Source: Haliea alexandrii
GTDB lineage: Bacteria > Pseudomonadota > Gammaproteobacteria > Pseudomonadales > Halieaceae
Reading direction: 5' to 3'
NCBI RefSeq assembly: GCF_003719295.1
Contig: NZ_RFLW01000003.1
Coordinates: 186,001-250,000 of the forward strand
Length of the DNA: 64,000 bases
Shown here: positions 32,381 to 44,523 of the stretch, one piece after another
Position numbering within the stretch: the stretch's first letter is position 1
How the letters are laid out: each line of letters starts with the position of its first letter
Notes under the pieces: model-generated
Databases searched by the model: none
The model's input: the letters and a program-made list of their open reading frames with translations, nothing else
Told to the model about the DNA's origin: nothing
Program-made: the position numbers and the translations under genes

Positions 32381-33640
32381 TTGGGCGAAGACGTGCACTG
32401 GACACCACCTGCAAGGCCGGCGTGGTTGCAGCAATTTAATGCCGAAGCCGCGGGCATGGATATTCAGCACCTGGTGCCGCTTGATGCCGACGAACTCGTC
32501 GCCACCGCACAGCGTGTCACCGGCTTTACTGACTTTGGCGGTAATGAATGGCGCGAGCCATTCGAGGTGCTCCTGCAGTCACTCAACACCGAGGCGGAGT
32601 TACACCCCTTTGGGCGCCTGATGACTCGCTCGGACATACTCATCTGGCTGCAAGCACTGCTGGGCATTCAGGCAGCGTTCAACGAACACCCTGAAATTGC
32701 TGACGAAGTCATAGATCGACCGGTGATTATCGCGGGGTCTCCGCGCTCTGGCACCTCCATCCTTTTCGAGCTCATGGCCCAAGACGCGCAGTTCGGCTCG
32801 CCCCGGCACTGGGAAATGATGTTCCCCTATCCCCCCCCCGAGGCGGCAACCTACGAGACTGACCCGAGGATAGAGCGCTGTCAGCACCTGGTGACTCAGT
32901 ACAACCGCGTAACGCCAACCTATGCCACCATGCACGAAATGGACGCACGACTGCCCAATGAGTGCGTGATCGCGCAAGCCTGCAGCTTTGTCAGTGAATA
33001 CATTCCCTTTCTCTTTCAGATCCCCAGCTATATCAATTACCTGTACGGCCAGGGGAACTGGGAATATTCCTATCGCACCTACAAGAGGCTGTTGCAACTG
33101 CTGCAGTGGCGCAATCCGCGCAAACACTGGTTACTCAAGGCTCCTTCGCATCTGAATTTCCTGCCCGTGCTGTTCCAGGTGTTTCCCGATGCGCATGTCA
33201 TCCTCACGCATCGGGACCCGCTGAAGGCGCAGGCCTCGGTGACCAACCTGGCTGGCACGTTCTTCTGGATGCGCAGCGACAAACCGCTGGACGTGGTCGC
33301 CTTCGAAGGGCTCCTGAACCCCAGGGCCATGGCTGCGAACCTGGACCGGATCATCGACTGGCTGGAATCCGACACTATCCCAAAATCCCAGTGCCATAAT
33401 TCACTGTACGCCACCCTGGTTGAGCAGCCCCTCAACGCACTTGCAGAGGTGTATGCTCAACTGGGGTTTGAATTGACCACGGAAACCGGCGATGCCATGC
33501 AGGATTACCTGCAAGCCAAGCCCAAGGCGAAATTTGGGCGGCACGAGTATAGCGTTGGCGATAGTGAGGACATTGCGCGCAAACGCCGCTATTTTGCACG
33601 CTACCAGCGCTATTTTAACGTCCCCGATGAGCCCATCTAG
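32381..33640 (+). CDS. Sulfotransferase family protein
   Basis: A 419-residue member of the bacterial sulfotransferase_3 group. The 5'-phosphosulfate loop is seen in VIIAGSPRSGTSILFELM near residue 115, and the 3'-phosphate region in HVILTHRDPLKAQASV near 275. Family members transfer sulfate from PAPS or, in many of these environmental clusters, have unproven activity. The best start is TTG 32381, with GGAGAG 8 bp upstream. It is the third gene of the DUF1214-SDR operon. Sulfation of a hydroxylated sterol-like or terpenoid substrate is a reasonable but unproven idea. Confidence 0.88.
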   Translation: MGEDVHWTPPARPAWLQQFNAEAAGMDIQHLVPLDADELVATAQRVTGFTDFGGNEWREPFEVLLQSLNTEAELHPFGRLMTRSDILIWLQALLGIQAAFNEHPEIADEVIDRPVIIAGSPRSGTSILFELMAQDAQFGSPRHWEMMFPYPPPEAATYETDPRIERCQHLVTQYNRVTPTYATMHEMDARLPNECVIAQACSFVSEYIPFLFQIPSYINYLYGQGNWEYSYRTYKRLLQLLQWRNPRKHWLLKAPSHLNFLPVLFQVFPDAHVILTHRDPLKAQASVTNLAGTFFWMRSDKPLDVVAFEGLLNPRAMAANLDRIIDWLESDTIPKSQCHNSLYATLVEQPLNALAEVYAQLGFELTTETGDAMQDYLQAKPKAKFGRHEYSVGDSEDIARKRRYFARYQRYFNVPDEPI

Positions 33641-36278: not shown

Positions 36279-36306
36279 TTGAATTTGTTATCCAATTGGA
36301 TATATT
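36279..36306 (+). promoter_or_regulatory. Promoter with TATCC-N4-GGATA operator, copy 1
   Basis: TTGAAT (36279-36284) and TATATT (36301-36306), 16 bp apart, enclose the perfect palindrome TATCCAATTGGATA (36289-36302), which overlaps the -10. It lies about 80 bp before the arylsulfatase ATG. The same half-sites recur at 39914 and 44510. Confidence 0.65.
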
Positions 36307-36385
36307 GGTGTCCTGTCAATCACATAACACCGCCTGTGCCGCTCGCACAGCCGCGAAAACGACAGTAAGGAGCTCTCAGGCACTC

Positions 36386-37720
36386 ATGCTACACATCTGT
36401 CGAAGACTCACAGCACTCTGTGTGCTGGGCATTGCAGCGCAGGTTGCGGCTAATGAGGCGCCGCCCAATATCATTGTTATTCTTGCGGACGATATGGGCG
36501 CTGCGGACTGGAGCCGAGGTGGCTCACAGTTCATTGCCACCCCCCAGTTGGACGCGCTGGCCAATGACGGCGTTATGCTGACGGACTTCCACGCCAGCGC
36601 CAGTGTCTGCACGCCTTCGAGGGCAGGCCTGTTAACCGGCCGATACCCGGCGCGGGTGGGGCTTGCCCAGGGGGTCATTCAACCCTGGTCCGAGTATGGT
36701 ATTCCCAAGGCCGAGATCACCATTGCCGAAATCTTGCGTGACGCGGGGTACGCGACGGCGATGATCGGTAAATGGCACCTCGGTACCGTACCGGAAGCAC
36801 ACCCCCTCGAGCATGGCTTTGACCATTATCTGGGTGTGCCCTACTCGAACGATATGCAGCCCTTCCCGCTGCTCCGGGATAGGACCGTGATACAGGCCGA
36901 CGCTGATCAAACACAGCTCACCCGGGTCTACACAGAAGCCGTCACCGATTTCATAGCCCGGCAGACCGCGCAAGAAAAACCGTTCTTTGTATATTTGGCC
37001 CACACGTTCCCGCATATACCACTTTTTGCGAGCGAATCGTTCAAGGGGCAGTCAAAGGCGGGACGTTACGGCGACACCATAGAGGAAATCGACTGGAGCC
37101 TGGGACAAATTCGCGCGGCTGTTGCCGCAGCTGGTGTCACCGACAACACGCTTATCGTATTCACCAGTGACAACGGCCCCTGGTTCCAGGGTGACAGTGG
37201 CCGCCGCGGACGCAAAGGCGACGGTTATGACGGCGCCTTTCGTGTCCCGTTCATCGCTGCACTACCCGGCACACTGCCGGCCAATGTCGTAAGTTCAGCC
37301 ATGACTATGAACATTGATCTCCTTCCCACACTGGCCGCTTTGGCGGGTGCAGAACTGCCGGATAGCCGGACAATCGACGGGAAAAATATTGTCCCGGTGC
37401 TGCAGGGTGGCAACATCTCGCCACACCAGTCACTGGCGTTTTTCATCAACAACGAAATAGCGGCCATACGCACAGAACGCTGGCGCTACGTTGTACGCGG
37501 CTACTACATGTCGTTCCTCGTGCCCTTCGAGCAATTTGGTGCGGCTATGCTATTTGACCTCGACACACACGGACAGGAGCTTTATGACGTGGCCGAAGAT
37601 CAGCCTGATACCGTTGCCATGATGCACAGGGAACTTGCCGCGCTGCGTAGGGAGCTCGAGGGGCTGCCACAACAGGTAACGCCCTACCCCAGGCCAGCTG
37701 AAAAGCAGGACGCACCGTGA
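36386..37720 (+). CDS. Arylsulfatase (sulfatase family S1)
   Basis: A 444-residue sulfatase with a signal peptide (LCVLGIAAQVAAN), so periplasmic. The N-terminal metal site is PNIIVILADDMG. The active-site signature C-T-P-S-R-A-G-L-L-T-G near residue 75 contains the Cys that an anaerobic or FGE-type maturase converts to formylglycine. KWHLGT and TSDNGPW are the other substrate and metal motifs. It hydrolyses sulfate esters of a carbohydrate or steroid. ATG 36386 is chosen for the signal peptide and AAGGAG upstream. It overlaps the GH3 gene by 4 bp, so desulfation and glycoside cleavage are coupled. Confidence 0.92.
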   Translation: MLHICRRLTALCVLGIAAQVAANEAPPNIIVILADDMGAADWSRGGSQFIATPQLDALANDGVMLTDFHASASVCTPSRAGLLTGRYPARVGLAQGVIQPWSEYGIPKAEITIAEILRDAGYATAMIGKWHLGTVPEAHPLEHGFDHYLGVPYSNDMQPFPLLRDRTVIQADADQTQLTRVYTEAVTDFIARQTAQEKPFFVYLAHTFPHIPLFASESFKGQSKAGRYGDTIEEIDWSLGQIRAAVAAAGVTDNTLIVFTSDNGPWFQGDSGRRGRKGDGYDGAFRVPFIAALPGTLPANVVSSAMTMNIDLLPTLAALAGAELPDSRTIDGKNIVPVLQGGNISPHQSLAFFINNEIAAIRTERWRYVVRGYYMSFLVPFEQFGAAMLFDLDTHGQELYDVAEDQPDTVAMMHRELAALRRELEGLPQQVTPYPRPAEKQDAP

Positions 37721-39867
37721 GCTCCCAGCATCAATCACAGAACAATAGCCTTGCGGCACGGGTAGAGGCGCAGATCGAGGCCGCGCTCAGCGATGCCAGC
37801 CTCGAAGAAAAGGTCGCCATGATGAGCGGGCATGGTTTTTTTGCCGCCTTTGTTGAGGACGACCGGGTGTGGGGCGCAAGACCGTATCGCGCCGGTGGCG
37901 GCTGCGAGCGCCTGGAGCTGCCCTTTTTCGGTTTTTCTGACGGCCCACGCGGTGTCGCCCGGGGTGAATCAACCTGCTTCCCGGTAGCGATGGCCCGGGG
38001 TGCAAGCTTCGATACCGATCTGGAGTACCGCATCGGTGAAGCGATGTCGCTGGAGCTCAGAGCACAGGACTGTAATCTCTCCGGGGCGGTCTGTGTCAAC
38101 CTCTTGCGTCATCCTGCCTGGGGCCGCGCACAGGAAACCTACGGAGAAGACAGCCATCACCTGGGCGAGATGGGTGCCGCGCTGGCGGCCGGCTTGCAGG
38201 TGCACAACGTCGCCGCGACCGTAAAGCATTTTGCGCTCAACTCCATTGAAAATTCGCGCTTCTATGTTGATGTGCGCGTCTCACAGCGCGTGCTGCACGA
38301 ACTCTATCTGCCGCATTTCAAACGTATTATTGATGCCGGCTGCCAAACGGTCATGAGCGCCTACAACAAGCTCAATGGCGAATACTGCGGCCAAAACCGT
38401 GAGTTACTGACCGATATCCTGCGCAAGGATTGGGGCTTCAAGGGTGTCGTACACTCGGACTGGATCATGGGTGTCTACCAACCCTACGGTGCGGAGGCCG
38501 GGCTGGATATAGAGAATCCCGAGCCGGTGCATTTCGGACAAAAACTGGTTGACGCGGTCAACGATGGTCATATCTCGCCGCGGGTGATCGATCAGGCCTG
38601 CGCTCGCATCATGCGTGTGTTGTGGACAAACCAGCAAGCAGAAGACCCCCGGGATCACTATCCACTATCACTGGTGGCCTGTGAGGCGCACCGACAATTG
38701 GCGTTGGAGGCTGCACAAAAGTCGGCGGTGCTGTTGAAGAACACGCACACACTCCTGCCGCTACAAGCCATCCGTAAAATTGCCGTGTTGGGGCAACTCG
38801 CTGTAGTCAAAAATACGGGCGACAAGGGTTCCTCGCGCGTGCGCGCACCCTACGTTGTTACTCCGCTTGCAGGCTTGCAGGAGCGTTTTGGTGAATCCAA
38901 CGTACACTTTGCGGGTAGCGAGTCCAACCTCGATACGGCGGTACACAACATCGGCGATGTCGATCTGGTGTTGATCGTTGCCGGCTATACGGCCGATGAA
39001 GAAGGTGAATATATTCCGGGTGACATCAACCTGGGGCAAGAGGCACCGAGTGCTGATGAACTGGATGCGCGAGCAGAGGCAGCCGGCGATGCCGATACCC
39101 AGGAAGATACAAAGCCCCAGCATACACAGAGTGCGCGAGGTGGAGACCGCATTGATCTCGGTCTTCCCGCCGCGCAAATCGCACTGATCAAAGCTTGCAC
39201 CGCTCGACACAACAATGTGCTCGTGGTGATACAGGCAGGTTCCGCAGTACTGGTCGACGATTGGATAGATGACGCAGCAGGACTCTTGCACGTATTTTAC
39301 GCCGGTATGGAGGGTGGCAAGGCACTTGCGCAGATCATTGCGGGTGATGTAAACCCCTCCGGTCACCTGCCGTTTACCGTCGCCCGAAAGGCCGAGGATT
39401 ACCCGTTCTTTGATCGAGAGGCCGCAGTGATGGAATATGACCTCTGGCACGGCTACGGCAAATTTCAAGCGCAGAACCTGCAGCCACGCTTCCCCTTCGG
39501 CTTTGGTTTGTCTTACACGCAGTTCGAGTATCGAGCGCTCAAGGCGCGGACGGACTCACGCGGCGATATTACGGTGCAGGTGTCGGTTCGCAATACGGGG
39601 CAGGTGGCCGGGGCATCGGTTGTGCAGGTCTACATAAGCCCACCCAACGCTGTTGTCAAACGCTGGCCGCGCCTACTCAAAGCCTTCCAGCGTGTGGAGC
39701 TCGCAGCCAACGAGCAACAGACCGTGCACCTGAGTATCCGCCGCGAATCGCTCGACTACTGGGACGAAAAGCCTGGCAGCTGGCGCTTCGAGGCAGGTCG
39801 CTACGCTATCGAAGTTGGTCAATCGAGTGACCCGGATACCTTGATCAGCTGTGAGCTTGAGCTTTGA
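37717..39867 (+). CDS. Glycoside hydrolase family 3 beta-glycosidase
   Basis: A 716-residue GH3 enzyme. The TIM-barrel domain (about 60-300) contains NLLRHPAWGRAQETYGED, TVKHFALNS and the nucleophile Asp in VVHSDWIMG. The (alpha/beta)6 domain (330-570) carries an acidic insertion of ~40 residues after EGEYIPGDINLGQE, and a C-terminal fibronectin-III-like domain (VSVRNTGQVAGASVVQVYIS) closes the protein. There is no signal peptide, so it is probably cytoplasmic, unlike the sulfatase. Start GTG 37717 overlaps the sulfatase stop. It removes a non-reducing beta-linked sugar; specificity is not readable. Confidence 0.93.
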   Translation: MSSQHQSQNNSLAARVEAQIEAALSDASLEEKVAMMSGHGFFAAFVEDDRVWGARPYRAGGGCERLELPFFGFSDGPRGVARGESTCFPVAMARGASFDTDLEYRIGEAMSLELRAQDCNLSGAVCVNLLRHPAWGRAQETYGEDSHHLGEMGAALAAGLQVHNVAATVKHFALNSIENSRFYVDVRVSQRVLHELYLPHFKRIIDAGCQTVMSAYNKLNGEYCGQNRELLTDILRKDWGFKGVVHSDWIMGVYQPYGAEAGLDIENPEPVHFGQKLVDAVNDGHISPRVIDQACARIMRVLWTNQQAEDPRDHYPLSLVACEAHRQLALEAAQKSAVLLKNTHTLLPLQAIRKIAVLGQLAVVKNTGDKGSSRVRAPYVVTPLAGLQERFGESNVHFAGSESNLDTAVHNIGDVDLVLIVAGYTADEEGEYIPGDINLGQEAPSADELDARAEAAGDADTQEDTKPQHTQSARGGDRIDLGLPAAQIALIKACTARHNNVLVVIQAGSAVLVDDWIDDAAGLLHVFYAGMEGGKALAQIIAGDVNPSGHLPFTVARKAEDYPFFDREAAVMEYDLWHGYGKFQAQNLQPRFPFGFGLSYTQFEYRALKARTDSRGDITVQVSVRNTGQVAGASVVQVYISPPNAVVKRWPRLLKAFQRVELAANEQQTVHLSIRRESLDYWDEKPGSWRFEAGRYAIEVGQSSDPDTLISCELEL

Positions 39868-39913
39868 CGTACCGTAGCGACAACGAAAACACGCCCTTTT
39901 TTTCGGGCAATAC

Positions 39914-39927
39914 TATCCATACGGATA
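39914..39927. promoter_or_regulatory. TATCC-N4-GGATA operator, copy 2
   Basis: TATCCATACGGATA, 70 bp before the TonB receptor ATG, in the gap after the GH3 gene. Same half-sites and same spacing as copies 1 and 3. Flanking promoter elements are not clear. Confidence 0.6.
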
Positions 39928-39996
39928 TCGATCGCTGGACAAGCGCCAGCATACCCAGTGCTGTAAATCACAGCCTAAACCAGTGAGGTCAAAATA

Positions 39997-42333
39997 ATGC
40001 ATATACTCAGGCCACCCCTGTCCTTTACTCCGGCGCTACTCGTCGTTGCGGTCCAGGCCGTACTTGGGCCCATGGCGTTCGCACAAACCGGTACATCTTC
40101 TGGCGTACTCGAAGTGGTTACCGTGACCGCGCAGCGTGTAGAGCAGGACTTGCAAGACGTGCCCATTTCAATCACCGCTGTGAGCGGCGATGACATGCAG
40201 ATTCGGCAGATCGACAGTTTTGATCAGCTGCAGTACGTATTGCCCGGCATCACCTTTAACGCGGGGCTTAATGCCAGGCAATCGGCGACATCCATTCGTG
40301 GCATCGGCACCGGGCTGTTTAACATCGGCATCGAAGCCAGCACCGCCGTGGCCATTGACGGTGTCATTCTGGGGCGTGAAGGTGCGGGCATTTTCGACTT
40401 TGCGGACATAGAACGCGTGGAGGTTTTGCGCGGCCCGCAGGGAACACTGTTCGGTAAAAACGCATCGGCAGGCGTCATTTCCTTGGTGACCAAGGGACCC
40501 ACGGATGAGTTTGAAGGCACCGTGCGCGCTTCCTACGGTTCCTTCGATGAGATCAACCTGTACGCTGCTGTGTCGGGACCACTCTCCGACAGCGTCTCCG
40601 GCCGCATCTCTACCTACTCGAACAAACGCGATGGTTACGTCGATAACGTGTTCGTTGATGCGCCGCAAAGCGAATTGAACGAGCGCGATGAAATGGGCGT
40701 GCGCGGTAAACTGCGTTTTGACTGGGGCGATGCGGGCGAGCTGTTACTCAGCGCTGACTTTCAGCGCCGCGACGAGGCATCGGGCGCGCTCACCTACCGC
40801 GCCACCTCGCAGGGTGGCCCCGGCACCGGCCTGTTGGGCGTTGGCGTACCCGTTTCGGGCCCTGTCAGTGAGTCTCTGGGCATCGTACCCGGGCCCAACA
40901 ATCTGGATATCGGTTCTGAAGGGGTTTTCAGCAGCGAAATGGAATCCTGGGGGGCGAGCGCCGAGTACACTCGCGCCTTGGGCGAGTTCGACCTGGTATC
41001 GCTCACTGCCTATCGCGAGTGGGATTCCGATGACAGCAACGACGCTGACCTTATTCCCCAACCATTTCTAGAAATCAACTCCGGGTCACTCCAGCAAGAG
41101 CAGTTCAGCCAGGAGTTTCGGCTTGTTTCACCCAGGAATAGCCCGCTGACCTACACGCTCGGTGCGTATTTCTTCTCCCAGGAGATGTCCCAGACAAACA
41201 CGCAATTTGGCACCGCTGGCCTGGATCTCCTGGGCGCCCTGCCCGCGGGTTTACGCTTGGGCACCGACTTTGCATCGTCCTTCGACGAGACCAACATGGC
41301 GATCTTCGGCCAGGGTGAATACGCGCTGACTGACAAGCTCTCACTGATCGCCGGGACAAGGGTCCTCTATTCAGAGGTAGAAGGTGATCAGCTGAAGACC
41401 GTTACCCCGGGTGCCGTGGGACCTTTTGCCGGTCAGAACGTGTCTGCAGGCCTTGAGTCTGCAAGTGAAGACGACACGGCCGTGGTGTGGCGACTCGGGC
41501 TTCAGTATCTTGTGGACAACGAGACCAACCTCTTTGCAACACTCACCCGAGGCTACAAATCTGCGGGGATTGTACAGGGGCTGACGATCAACCCCATCGC
41601 AGGTAATCAGCTGCCGACAGTCGATGCAGAGATTCCCGCACAGTTTGAATTGGGACTGCGACACCGCTCACCCGATGGCCGCCTCACAACCAACGTTACC
41701 GCGTTCTACACGCAAATTGACGACTTCCAGGCCCAGACACTGATTCCGGATGAATCGGGTCTGTCGGTATTTACCGTTGCCAACGCGGGCGAGGCGGAAA
41801 GCTATGGCTTCGAAGCTGAACTGACCTGGGTGCCATTCAATGCACTCACCTTGTCGTCAGCCGTTGCCTATACCAAGGCGGAGTTTGATGATTTCCCGCT
41901 GGCGCCCTGCTACACCTTGCAGACGGCGGCAGAGGGTTGCGTCACAGTCGACGGACGTTCAGTACAGGACCTGGCAGGACAGCCACTGGCCAACGCACCT
42001 GAATGGGTGGTGAACGCCCTGGCGCGGTACGACTTCACGGTGGCATCGCACGCGAGCTTTATACAGCTGGGTGCGCAGTATCGGGACGAAGTACAGTCAA
42101 GTATCACCAACGACCCCAACACGATTATTGATGATCGTATTCTGGTGGATGCACAACTGGGCACGAGTCTGATGGAGGGTGACTTGTCCCTGAGTCTTTT
42201 CGTCAGAAACCTATTGGAGGAGGAATTCCCGGAGGCGATTACCGGCATGCCCTTTGATACCGGCGGCTATGCACAGTTTCGCACATTGGAGTCTGAACGC
42301 ACCGTAGGGGCGACCGTGCAGTATAGCTTCTAG
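39997..42333 (+). CDS. TonB-dependent outer-membrane receptor
   Basis: A 778-residue outer-membrane transporter with signal peptide (cleaved after MAFA). Plug domain at about 45-165 (VTVTAQRVEQDLQDVPISITAVSG; IERVEVLRGPQGTLFGKNASAGVI), followed by a 22-strand barrel ending in a C-terminal Phe (GATVQYSF) as required by the Bam machinery. It belongs to the large CirA/FecA-like group expanded in marine gammaproteobacteria for uptake of oligosaccharides, sterols or siderophores. Its own copy of the TATCC-N4-GGATA operator and its position after sulfatase and GH3 genes suggest it imports their glycoside substrate. Confidence 0.94.
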   Translation: MHILRPPLSFTPALLVVAVQAVLGPMAFAQTGTSSGVLEVVTVTAQRVEQDLQDVPISITAVSGDDMQIRQIDSFDQLQYVLPGITFNAGLNARQSATSIRGIGTGLFNIGIEASTAVAIDGVILGREGAGIFDFADIERVEVLRGPQGTLFGKNASAGVISLVTKGPTDEFEGTVRASYGSFDEINLYAAVSGPLSDSVSGRISTYSNKRDGYVDNVFVDAPQSELNERDEMGVRGKLRFDWGDAGELLLSADFQRRDEASGALTYRATSQGGPGTGLLGVGVPVSGPVSESLGIVPGPNNLDIGSEGVFSSEMESWGASAEYTRALGEFDLVSLTAYREWDSDDSNDADLIPQPFLEINSGSLQQEQFSQEFRLVSPRNSPLTYTLGAYFFSQEMSQTNTQFGTAGLDLLGALPAGLRLGTDFASSFDETNMAIFGQGEYALTDKLSLIAGTRVLYSEVEGDQLKTVTPGAVGPFAGQNVSAGLESASEDDTAVVWRLGLQYLVDNETNLFATLTRGYKSAGIVQGLTINPIAGNQLPTVDAEIPAQFELGLRHRSPDGRLTTNVTAFYTQIDDFQAQTLIPDESGLSVFTVANAGEAESYGFEAELTWVPFNALTLSSAVAYTKAEFDDFPLAPCYTLQTAAEGCVTVDGRSVQDLAGQPLANAPEWVVNALARYDFTVASHASFIQLGAQYRDEVQSSITNDPNTIIDDRILVDAQLGTSLMEGDLSLSLFVRNLLEEEFPEAITGMPFDTGGYAQFRTLESERTVGATVQYSF

Positions 42334-42371
42334 AAAGAGGGGAACAGGGCGGCCTGCTCGCGCAGGTCGTC

Positions 42372-42989
42372 CTAACGCGACAACAGAATATCCAACACCG
42401 TCTCGCAGTAGGCTTCCACGGTCTCATCATCGATGGTGATACCGTAAATTTCACGCGCCTCAGGCGCCAGCGTGAACAGGGCCTGGCACGCTGCTGAAAC
42501 AATATAGAGCAGGAAAACAGGGTTGTGCTTGGGTAGCACGCCGTTTTTCACGAGCGCCTGGGTCATCACGTCCACAGACTCGTGCTGCTTTTTGATGAAA
42601 TGCTCCGTCGCCCAGCACAGCTGCTCTCCATCCTGGATAGAGGTTTGCACCATGATCCGGGCGTGGTCCGGGTGCTCTGCGCAATAGCGGATGTAGCGCC
42701 GCAGCCAGGCAATGTACATTTCCCTGTCGCCCGCCATCAGCTTTTCACGCGATGCATCGTCGAAAGCCATCTTCCGTGCCATACGGTCGAAGAGAAAGCG
42801 GACGGCTTCTTTCCAGAGGTTGTCCTTGGATTCAAAGTGATAACGAATGACCGCGTGGTTACAGCCAGCCAGTTCGGCTATGTCACGCACGTTGGCTCCC
42901 TTGAAACCCTCGCGCGAAAACACCTCAAGAGCAGCCGCGAGAAGGCGGTCTTTCTGAGAACCTGTTTGAGAGTCCAAAACGGCGGGCAT
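42372..42989 (-). CDS. TetR-family transcriptional regulator
   Basis: A 205-residue regulator with a clear N-terminal HTH (NVRDIAELAGCNHAVIRYHFESKDNLWKEA). The C-terminal domain (about 90-200) resembles the CerR/AefR-like type. It lies between the TonB receptor and the GPH transporter genes, so it is the natural candidate for the protein that binds the three TATCC-N4-GGATA sites, although I see no copy of that dyad in front of its own gene. The C-terminal end is convergent with the TonB receptor gene, with 38 bp between them. Confidence 0.92.
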   Translation of the reverse strand: MPAVLDSQTGSQKDRLLAAALEVFSREGFKGANVRDIAELAGCNHAVIRYHFESKDNLWKEAVRFLFDRMARKMAFDDASREKLMAGDREMYIAWLRRYIRYCAEHPDHARIMVQTSIQDGEQLCWATEHFIKKQHESVDVMTQALVKNGVLPKHNPVFLLYIVSAACQALFTLAPEAREIYGITIDDETVEAYCETVLDILLSR

Positions 42990-43094
42990 AAACGTTTCCG
43001 ATTGAGTCAGTAGATATCAGCGATTGCCGCTGCAGATGTTCGCGGCGGCGCCGGGGTTGCGGCTGTCATGATACGCTGAATCAGTGCACTCGCT

Positions 43095-44477
43095 CTAGCG
43101 TTGCGGGAGTTGGTCGCGTACACGCAGCTGGTCTTTGATTCTTGTGTGCTCGGCAGCATCCAGAGGGTAACGAAAGAGTACCACCAGGGTTAAGAGCGCC
43201 CCCAGAGCGGGAATAAGCGACATAATACTCTTCAGGCCCAGTAAAGTGCCCTCACTTTGCGCCACATTGGGTACGAAGCCCACGCCATCCAGTAATACGC
43301 CCAGAATGAACGCGTTCAGACCCAGCGCTGATTTTTGCGCAAAGCTGGCAAAACCGAATACCTTTGCTTCGTGATTCTCGCCGCTTATCCAGCGGTCATA
43401 TTCCACTGTGTCGGGCAGCATTGACCAGAACATCACCGCAAACGAGGAGGTACCGAGCCCGATAAATGCAAGAGAAGCGTAAACGGCAAGCGTGTTCTGC
43501 ATGGGCAAGGCAAAGAACAGCAGGCAACCGAACAAGGTAATACCCGCCCCCAGCATCCACGCCTGACGTTTTGACCGGCGCACCGAGTACCAGGCCCAAA
43601 GTGGCGCGCACAGGATAAGAATAGAGGGACCGATTATCAGCGCAAGCCCCGCAGCGGCTTCATTACCCACCGCGTACTTGAACCAGTAAATAATCGTCTT
43701 GCTCAGCATGGCCAAACAGAGGCTGGCGAGCGTAATGCACAGAAACACGCGTACCAGCGGCCCGTTACGGCGCAGCATGGCGATTGCGGTACGAAAATCG
43801 TCGGCGATACCTCCCTGAACAGGCGATGCCTCAGCGATAGCTTGCTCGCGAGTGCCCGCAAAACACACCCACATTGCCGTTGTCGCCGCCACCGCCATCA
43901 AAACAGCTGCCAACAGCCAGCCCTGCCCGGGATCGCCAGACCACTCTGTAAAACGGGCGACGATACTCGGCGTTGCCATAGCCGTTGTGAGCCCACCAAT
44001 GGCGGCTGCCTGCATGCGTGTACCTGCCAGCCGGGACCGCGATGCACTGTCCAGCGCAACCCGCACCGACAGTGACGAATACGGTATCGCGTAGAGCGTA
44101 TAGAGCGTTCGGAAAATCAGATGCGTAGCCAGTGCATAGGCAATCAAGGGTCCCGCGGAGAGCGTCGAAGGCACGTAGAACATCGCGCAGAAAGCCAGGG
44201 CAAGGAAAGGCGGCGTTAGCAGCAAGTAAGGGCGGTAACGACCCATGGAGGTCTGGGTTCGGTCGGCGAGTCCCGCGATGAGTACGTCGGTGATCGCGTC
44301 CCAGAGCGACGCGATCAATATGGTAACGCCTGCCCACCACGCCGGTATGCCCAGGATATCGGTGTAGAAAAAGAACAGGAATAGACCCACGCCCTGCCAA
44401 TAGACGTTCAGGCCGAGGTCGCCGACGGCGTAGCTCACGCGTGTGCCGAAAGACAGTGTGGACGATGCAGGAGACAT
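43095..44477 (-). CDS. GPH-family sugar/cation symporter (MFS, MelB-like)
   Basis: A 460-residue inner-membrane transporter with 12 helices of the glycoside-pentoside-hexuronide group. Family sequences visible are SYAVGDLGLNVYWQG near the N-terminus, the helix 2-3 loop DAITDVLIAGLADRTQTSMGRYRPYLL with the MelB-type cation-site Asp and the GRYRP motif, and the central EYDRWISGENHEAKVFGFASF. ATG 44477 is chosen because a TTG at 44516 would put the coding start inside the operator at 44510-44523. It should carry the released sugar or glycoside across the inner membrane by H+ or Na+ symport. Confidence 0.92.
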   Translation of the reverse strand: MSPASSTLSFGTRVSYAVGDLGLNVYWQGVGLFLFFFYTDILGIPAWWAGVTILIASLWDAITDVLIAGLADRTQTSMGRYRPYLLLTPPFLALAFCAMFYVPSTLSAGPLIAYALATHLIFRTLYTLYAIPYSSLSVRVALDSASRSRLAGTRMQAAAIGGLTTAMATPSIVARFTEWSGDPGQGWLLAAVLMAVAATTAMWVCFAGTREQAIAEASPVQGGIADDFRTAIAMLRRNGPLVRVFLCITLASLCLAMLSKTIIYWFKYAVGNEAAAGLALIIGPSILILCAPLWAWYSVRRSKRQAWMLGAGITLFGCLLFFALPMQNTLAVYASLAFIGLGTSSFAVMFWSMLPDTVEYDRWISGENHEAKVFGFASFAQKSALGLNAFILGVLLDGVGFVPNVAQSEGTLLGLKSIMSLIPALGALLTLVVLFRYPLDAAEHTRIKDQLRVRDQLPQR

Positions 44478-44509
44478 TAGCGCGCTCGGTTGCGTTAGCT
44501 TATTGTGTT

Positions 44510-44523
44510 TATCCAAGCGGATA
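44510..44523 (-). promoter_or_regulatory. TATCC-N4-GGATA operator, copy 3
   Basis: TATCCAAGCGGATA on the plus strand, 33 bp before the GPH transporter start. Third copy of the pattern, in the expected place to control the minus-strand gene. Confidence 0.6.

Follow-up and report, generated by a model that had tools for sequence, protein, structure and literature searches.

A candidate TetR regulon marked by TATCC-N4-GGATA dyads at a predicted sulfated-glycoside utilisation locus of Haliea alexandrii

Three copies of the inverted repeat TATCC-N4-GGATA occur within 8,235 bp of a Haliea alexandrii contig (NZ_RFLW01000003.1), one before each unit of a small gene cluster, and raise the question of whether they define one regulon and which protein would bind them. 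The window, meaning the whole stretch of DNA that was analysed, is 64,000 nt long (positions 186,001 to 250,000 of the contig), and the coordinates below refer to it. A preliminary description of the window had read the copies as one regulon, with the TetR-family protein encoded in the cluster as the candidate binder.

The cluster contains five genes, with those for a sulfatase, a glycoside hydrolase family 3 (GH3) protein and a TonB-dependent receptor on the plus strand and those for a GPH-family symporter and a TetR-family regulator on the minus strand, where GPH is upstream of tetR. The sulfatase (36386..37720, plus strand; PF00884, 198.1 bits; the ATG at 36386 is assumed as start) has a Cys-x-Pro-x-Arg motif that was read by eye, and its gene overlaps by four bases that of the GH3 protein (37717..39867, plus strand), which matches PF00933, PF01915 and PF14310 above cut-off. 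The TonB-dependent receptor (39997..42333, plus strand) matches PF00593 (141.4 bits) and PF07715 (67.7 bits), and the symporter (43095..44477, minus strand; the ATG at 44477 is assumed) matches TIGR00792 (288.1 bits, cut-off 231.35) and PF13347. A TonB receptor, a glycoside hydrolase, a sulfatase and a symporter are thereby found together, the combination by which a sulfated-glycoside utilisation locus is recognised. The enzyme families suggest a sulfated glycoside as substrate. The nearest solved chains (human arylsulfatase A and steryl-sulfatase for the sulfatase, a putative beta-glucosidase for the GH3 protein, and the melibiose carrier among symporters) do not fix the substrate, and the best NCBIfam match of the GH3 protein, an arabinopyranosidase, falls far below its cut-off. 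The sulfatase-modifying (FGE) family is represented elsewhere in the genome and at 8 of the 46 related loci described below. An ORF that by eye resembles a sulfotransferase lies at 32381-33640, 3 kb upstream of the sulfatase gene.

A pattern scan of the window found three exact TATCC-N4-GGATA dyads and no others (no strand assigned): copy 1, TATCCAATTGGATA (36289..36302), is 5' of sulfatase-GH3, copy 2, TATCCATACGGATA (39914..39927), is 5' of the TonB receptor gene, and copy 3, TATCCAAGCGGATA (44510..44523), is 5' of GPH-tetR. The preliminary description had called these palindromes identical; its coordinates and half-sites stand, and ten fixed bases are common to all three, but the four central bases vary. 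In a mechanically made ORF list, the sulfatase and GPH genes begin at TTG codons inside the dyads. The likely starts are the ATG codons at 36386 (sulfatase), 39997 (TonB receptor) and 44477 (GPH), and all three dyads are therefore intergenic, as had been proposed.

Dinucleotide shuffles of the window (n=100) gave no exact TATCC-N4-GGATA. The probability of at least three dyads in 8,235 bp is 1.2e-8 if the rate is taken from outside the cluster and 1.9e-7 if it is taken from all five genome sites, both values being post hoc because the pattern was derived from these same sites; recurrence in relatives is the cleaner test. Copy 1 was said to sit between a -35 and a -10 element, and the promoter scan bears this out: it is flanked by TTGAAT (36279-36284) and TATATT (36301-36306), overlaps the latter, and is thus overlapped by the promoter-like match TTGAAT-16-TATATT (36279..36306, plus strand; 9 of 12 consensus bases). 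This match is weak when taken alone, since the scan returned 3 promoter-like sites versus 3.8 in shuffles. Copies 2 and 3 have no good promoter match. A terminator scan (11 versus 7.5 in shuffles) was set aside as evidence. On the minus strand, GPH (44477-43095) is followed by tetR (42989-42372) after a gap of 105 bp, so a transcript from a promoter at copy 3 could include tetR. Copy 3 could then serve both genes, which would answer the point that tetR lacks a copy of its own, and a separate tetR promoter may lie in the 105-bp gap.

The preliminary description held that a pattern common across the genome, or common inside genes, would speak against a regulon, and the genome (3,961,381 bases, 12 contigs) was scanned accordingly. 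The exact pattern proved rare, with five dyads versus one for the pattern read backwards, and the three copies in the cluster are the sole intergenic ones. The two others lie inside ORFs whose names come from reading their translations, one resembling a hybrid histidine kinase (L001) and one of 810 aa resembling a Tn3-type transposase (L005). Both lack the purine-NN-pyrimidine centre that all three cluster dyads share. When one mismatch was allowed, 75 sites were found (the five exact ones included) versus 19 for the control, so only the exact pattern is specific.

The proposed binder is encoded at 42372..42989 on the minus strand. Its N-terminal helix-turn-helix domain scores above the curated cut-off (PF00440, 43.5 bits versus 24), which places it in the TetR/AcrR family, and its AlphaFold model (mean pLDDT 93.6) has the all-helical two-domain TetR fold, with RutR as the best Foldseek match (3loc_C, E 2.7e-8, TM 0.74). 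The recognition helix spans residues 45-52 in the model and is immediately preceded by N44; codons 44-52 correspond to 42834..42860 (minus strand), with helix limits taken from the model and alignment and coordinates computed from the gene start.

Relatives were collected by scanning named genomes with six aligned TetRs, which yielded 62 loci. In 46 of them (L053-L098) the relative extends over most of TetR at 31-52% identity, and the other 16 (L099-L114) are distant. Pseudohaliea rubra and Halioglobus sp., labelled Halieaceae, are among the genomes with a collected locus. Each locus was counted once in totals for the 46. Every 5-mer inverted repeat with a spacer of 0-12 was then counted, free of any chosen pattern, in 47 sources (window positions 32001-53000 and L053-L098, with the 16 distant loci outside the count). 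TATCC-N4-GGATA ranks first, being present in 20 of the 47 sources, the window included, where 0.47 were expected. The exact dyad thus recurs in 19 of the 46 relatives' loci (29 sites, window excluded) and is absent from 27; L056, L057, L060 and L062 are near relatives, and these locus counts are thus not independent. TATCC/GGATA pairs occur 29 times at spacer 4 versus 5 times at the twelve other spacers combined, and a small set of control loci around remoter TetRs (L012-L035; 24 loci, 83 kb) has no exact dyad. Lack of conservation at related loci was another outcome named as contrary to a regulon, and this comparison, together with the rarity of the dyad in the genome, supports the original reading.

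The sites also have a consistent placement. Twenty-seven of the 29 lie at most 300 bp from where a called ORF begins (in three cases the called start is uncertain and the site falls as much as 25 bp inside it), and the remaining two (L072, L078) are inside called ORFs. Of those 27, 24 are at TetR, TonB, GPH, GH3, sulfatase or variant-set genes and three are at other genes (L059, L067, L076), where all genes of relatives are script-chosen ORFs called with no gene finder, a procedure that missed the GPH ORF at L056 and L057. The purine-NN-pyrimidine centre is present in 23 of the 29. Genes clustering with the window's proteins are frequent at L053-L098 (GH3 at 34 of 46 loci, TonB at 26, GPH at 25 and sulfatase at 25). 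L053 has one exact dyad for each of the three units, as in the window, and the GPH-TetR order with a dyad before GPH is found there and at L094.

The genome that holds L094 contains ten exact dyads, one being at L094 itself. Five others, on other contigs, were inspected: three are at set genes, namely TonB/sulfatase/GH3 (L125), sulfatase (L126) and TetR/GPH/GH3 (L127), and two, L128 (5012) and L129 (5330), lie away from set genes and are not explained by the regulon. By eye, the L129 dyad is near LacI-type and TonB-type ORFs. The genome of L091 likewise has a further exact dyad away from set genes, L130 (6067).

Several other features of these loci were recorded. At L065 (5433-8585) and L074 (4420-7515) a GH106-type protein (family search run on L065 only) and another type of TonB receptor replace GH3 and sulfatase; in the divergent gap, L065 keeps an exact dyad and L074 has a one-mismatch site. 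A second exact dyad, TCTCC-AAGT-GGAGA, precedes the TonB gene at L056 (11976), L057 (11986), L060 (11963) and L062 (7826), and in three of these four near relatives it follows the TATCC site by 42-45 bp; it is perhaps a weaker second operator. The stronger runners-up in the repeat count were rejected as rival operators. TTATC-N6, TCCAA-N0, ATTAT-N8 and ATCCA-N2 look like the TATCC dyad in a shifted register, and the ATTAT-N8 sites, which were located, fall at such dyads in 6 of 6 cases. GAATC-N7 is inside the tetR gene in 8 of 9 cases and inside a GPH ORF in the ninth, and all 8 CATCT-N5 sites are inside called ORFs.

In 140 genomes of the family Halieaceae, five besides that of H. alexandrii encode a TetR of at least 41% identity and the next best match is 30%; of the seven other genomes of the genus, one has a partial TetR match of 31% and the remaining six gave none at E 1e-15. 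Eight of 390 genomes of the order, this one included, match at E 1e-40. Among the collected loci, L053 from Alkalicaulis satelles has the nearest TetR (52%), sulfatase (66%) and GH3 (60%), L070 has the nearest TonB receptor, and for GPH the loci L056 and L053 tie. The cluster is likely an accessory set moving between lineages, a reading for which the gene trees are of TetR only.

The half-site was compared with the start of the recognition helix in 52 TetR rows. TATCC is present at 21 of the 29 loci with N44 versus 4 of the 23 without it. In all five rows with S-H-A (Hyphomonas, Henriciella), CATCC-N4-GGATG directly precedes the TonB gene, falling within the called start region in the case of L097, and an imperfect CATCC copy lies between GPH and tetR; CATCC-N4-GGATG is otherwise found in 2 of 47 rows, both times inside ORFs. 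Both T-H-S rows have an intergenic CGTCC dyad, flanked by GPH and an esterase gene. In L077, the R-H-S row, two one-mismatch CGTCC relatives lie just upstream of tetR and the sole exact copy is inside a gene. CGTCC is seen in 4 of 49 other rows, three of them with the copy inside ORFs. None of these dyads occurs in the nine E-H-S rows (Phenylobacterium), which share an imperfect CC/GGG dyad in the GH3-tetR interval. Exceptions are present on both sides: L079 and L095 (N-H-A) have TAACC-N4-GGTTA instead of TATCC, the N44 rows L080 and L087 have no dyad within one mismatch, and T44 rows have TATCC in 3 of 5 cases. At L127 an S-H-G TetR (S44) is beside TATCC, and residue 44 alone therefore does not set the half-site; the same genome also encodes the N-H-A TetR of L094. 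On these alignments, the half-site goes with the TetR clade and helix, with exceptions; residue 44 by itself does not account for it. These differences between clades, and the recurrence of the dyad beside TetR relatives, favour the cluster TetR as the probable binder. P-values computed for N44 and for S46 were given no weight: they take no account of relatedness, the N44 test omitted the five T44 rows, and the S46 test omitted the nine E-H-S rows and included L077.

The 16 distant TetRs were found partly through a helix-3 peptide pattern, and all 16 have N-H at the start of helix 3. An exact dyad is present at only 5 of these 16 loci, and N-H is therefore not sufficient. In four of the distant loci (L103 9901, L106 3862, L107 9907 and L109 9907; Caulobacter, Sphingorhabdus, Sphingomonadaceae), TTATCC-N4-GGATAA precedes the TetR match by 50-100 bp. 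The neighbours there are short-chain dehydrogenase, phosphotransferase and acyl-CoA-type genes: the same operator accompanies another gene set. A broader proposal is that a mobile sulfatase/GH3/TonB/GPH set is under the control of one TetR subfamily across Alpha- and Gammaproteobacteria, and that the operator of this subfamily changed in step with the helix-start residues (N-H-G/A with TATCC, S-H-A with CATCC, T-H-S with CGTCC). The result would be a natural recognition code, to which the distant N-H-A group (L103, L106, L107, L109) would also conform. We consider this proposal possible but rather doubtful, its odds being lowered because the S-H-G TetR of L127 adjoins TATCC, because L079 and L095 have TAACC with N-H-A, and because the exact CGTCC of L077 sits inside a gene.

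The three dyads are very probably operators of the TetR protein at 42372-42989, which would repress all three units until a substrate or product lifts the repression. A TetR dimer would place one recognition helix on each TATCC half-site and block the adjoining promoters, so that sulfatase-GH3, the TonB receptor and GPH-tetR would be held low together and tetR would limit its own expression through copy 3. The inducer would be the substrate itself or one of its breakdown products, an aglycone or a sugar; once it had entered the TetR pocket, the ligand-bound dimer would leave the DNA and all five genes would be expressed. The receptor and symporter would then import the compound, and the sulfatase and GH3 protein would degrade it.

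One-mismatch sites are common in the genome (75, as above) and the genome-wide P is post hoc, but the shuffles, the inverted-repeat ranking, the spacer control and the recurrence in relatives together speak against chance or a composition effect, to which we give next to no credence; chance had been judged unlikely from the outset. The dyads might instead form one regulon whose binder is encoded elsewhere, with the local TetR sensing something else. The exact dyad of L129, near a LacI-type gene by eye and not a TetR gene, and the TATCC dyads beside the distant TetR group (L103, L106, L107, L109) would fit such an arrangement, but the loci were picked by TetR alone and the dyad still ranked first, the half-site varies with the TetR clade, and this genome has no intergenic exact dyad outside the cluster; we regard a binder elsewhere as improbable.

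Activation by the bound TetR, or action in both directions according to site position, is marginally less probable again. TetR-type activators exist, and only copy 1 has a clear position relative to a promoter, no good match being present at copies 2 and 3. Against this, the candidate promoter at copy 1 has its -10 overlapped by the dyad, as is typical of repressor sites, and most characterised TetR family members are repressors. Repression by the TetR protein of the cluster is thus the reading we favour.

Regulators of known kind were compared with this protein. PsrA-type operators, GAAAC-N4-GTTTC, likewise consist of two 5-base half-sites with a 4-base spacer, but PsrA-type regulators have other half-site letters and another gene set, and the identification of the TetR protein as PsrA was ruled out (NF053516, 32 bits versus a cut-off of 300). 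RutR, the pyrimidine regulator, supplies the nearest solved structures by sequence as well as by fold; its operator differs from the TATCC dyad, its gene set is unrelated to that of the cluster, and identity with RutR was ruled out (TIGR03613, 61.2 bits versus a cut-off of 368). Marine TonB-receptor/CAZyme/sulfatase utilisation loci also have a TonB receptor, glycoside hydrolase, sulfatase and inner-membrane transporter adjoining, whereas the cluster is a small set with one GH3 and with TetR as its local regulator; such marine loci usually have other regulator types.

For the control logic, GusR/UidR of Escherichia coli offers a precedent: the available text of PMC9881133 describes a TetR-type repressor over a glycosidase (uidA) and a GPH symporter (uidB), lifted by a glycoside, which is the same logic as proposed here with partly the same gene kinds. 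The likeness of GusR to the cluster TetR covers the DNA-binding part only (BLASTP, 33% over 57 residues; profile match, 70 columns). Unlike the cluster, the E. coli uid stretch fetched has no TonB receptor and no sulfatase, and in its 5,001 bases there is no dyad within one mismatch and there are 2 with two mismatches versus 1.34 expected. With no homology over the ligand-binding domain and no shared operator, identity with GusR/UidR was ruled out, and GusR is a precedent for the logic and not a close homologue. Six variants of the operator string were absent from 5.39 million open-access papers, nor was the gene set with its regulator in such text as was available from the open-access papers searched; the available text of PMC13273656 concerns an IclR-type regulator, and that paper was rejected as an account of this system. 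TetR proteins that control catabolic genes through dyad operators are a known kind, and this operator-regulator pair is one not found in the open-access papers searched.

Since the candidate regulator of this TonB/sulfatase/glycosidase set is a TetR and not one of the regulators common for sugars, its inducer may be something less like a sugar, for example an aglycone. The analysis yields regulator, operator and gene set together for a family in dozens of genomes (46 loci), so that the regulon can be traced by its DNA pattern and its inducer is open to screening, and the parallel change of helix and half-site makes the family a natural data set on DNA choice by TetR proteins.
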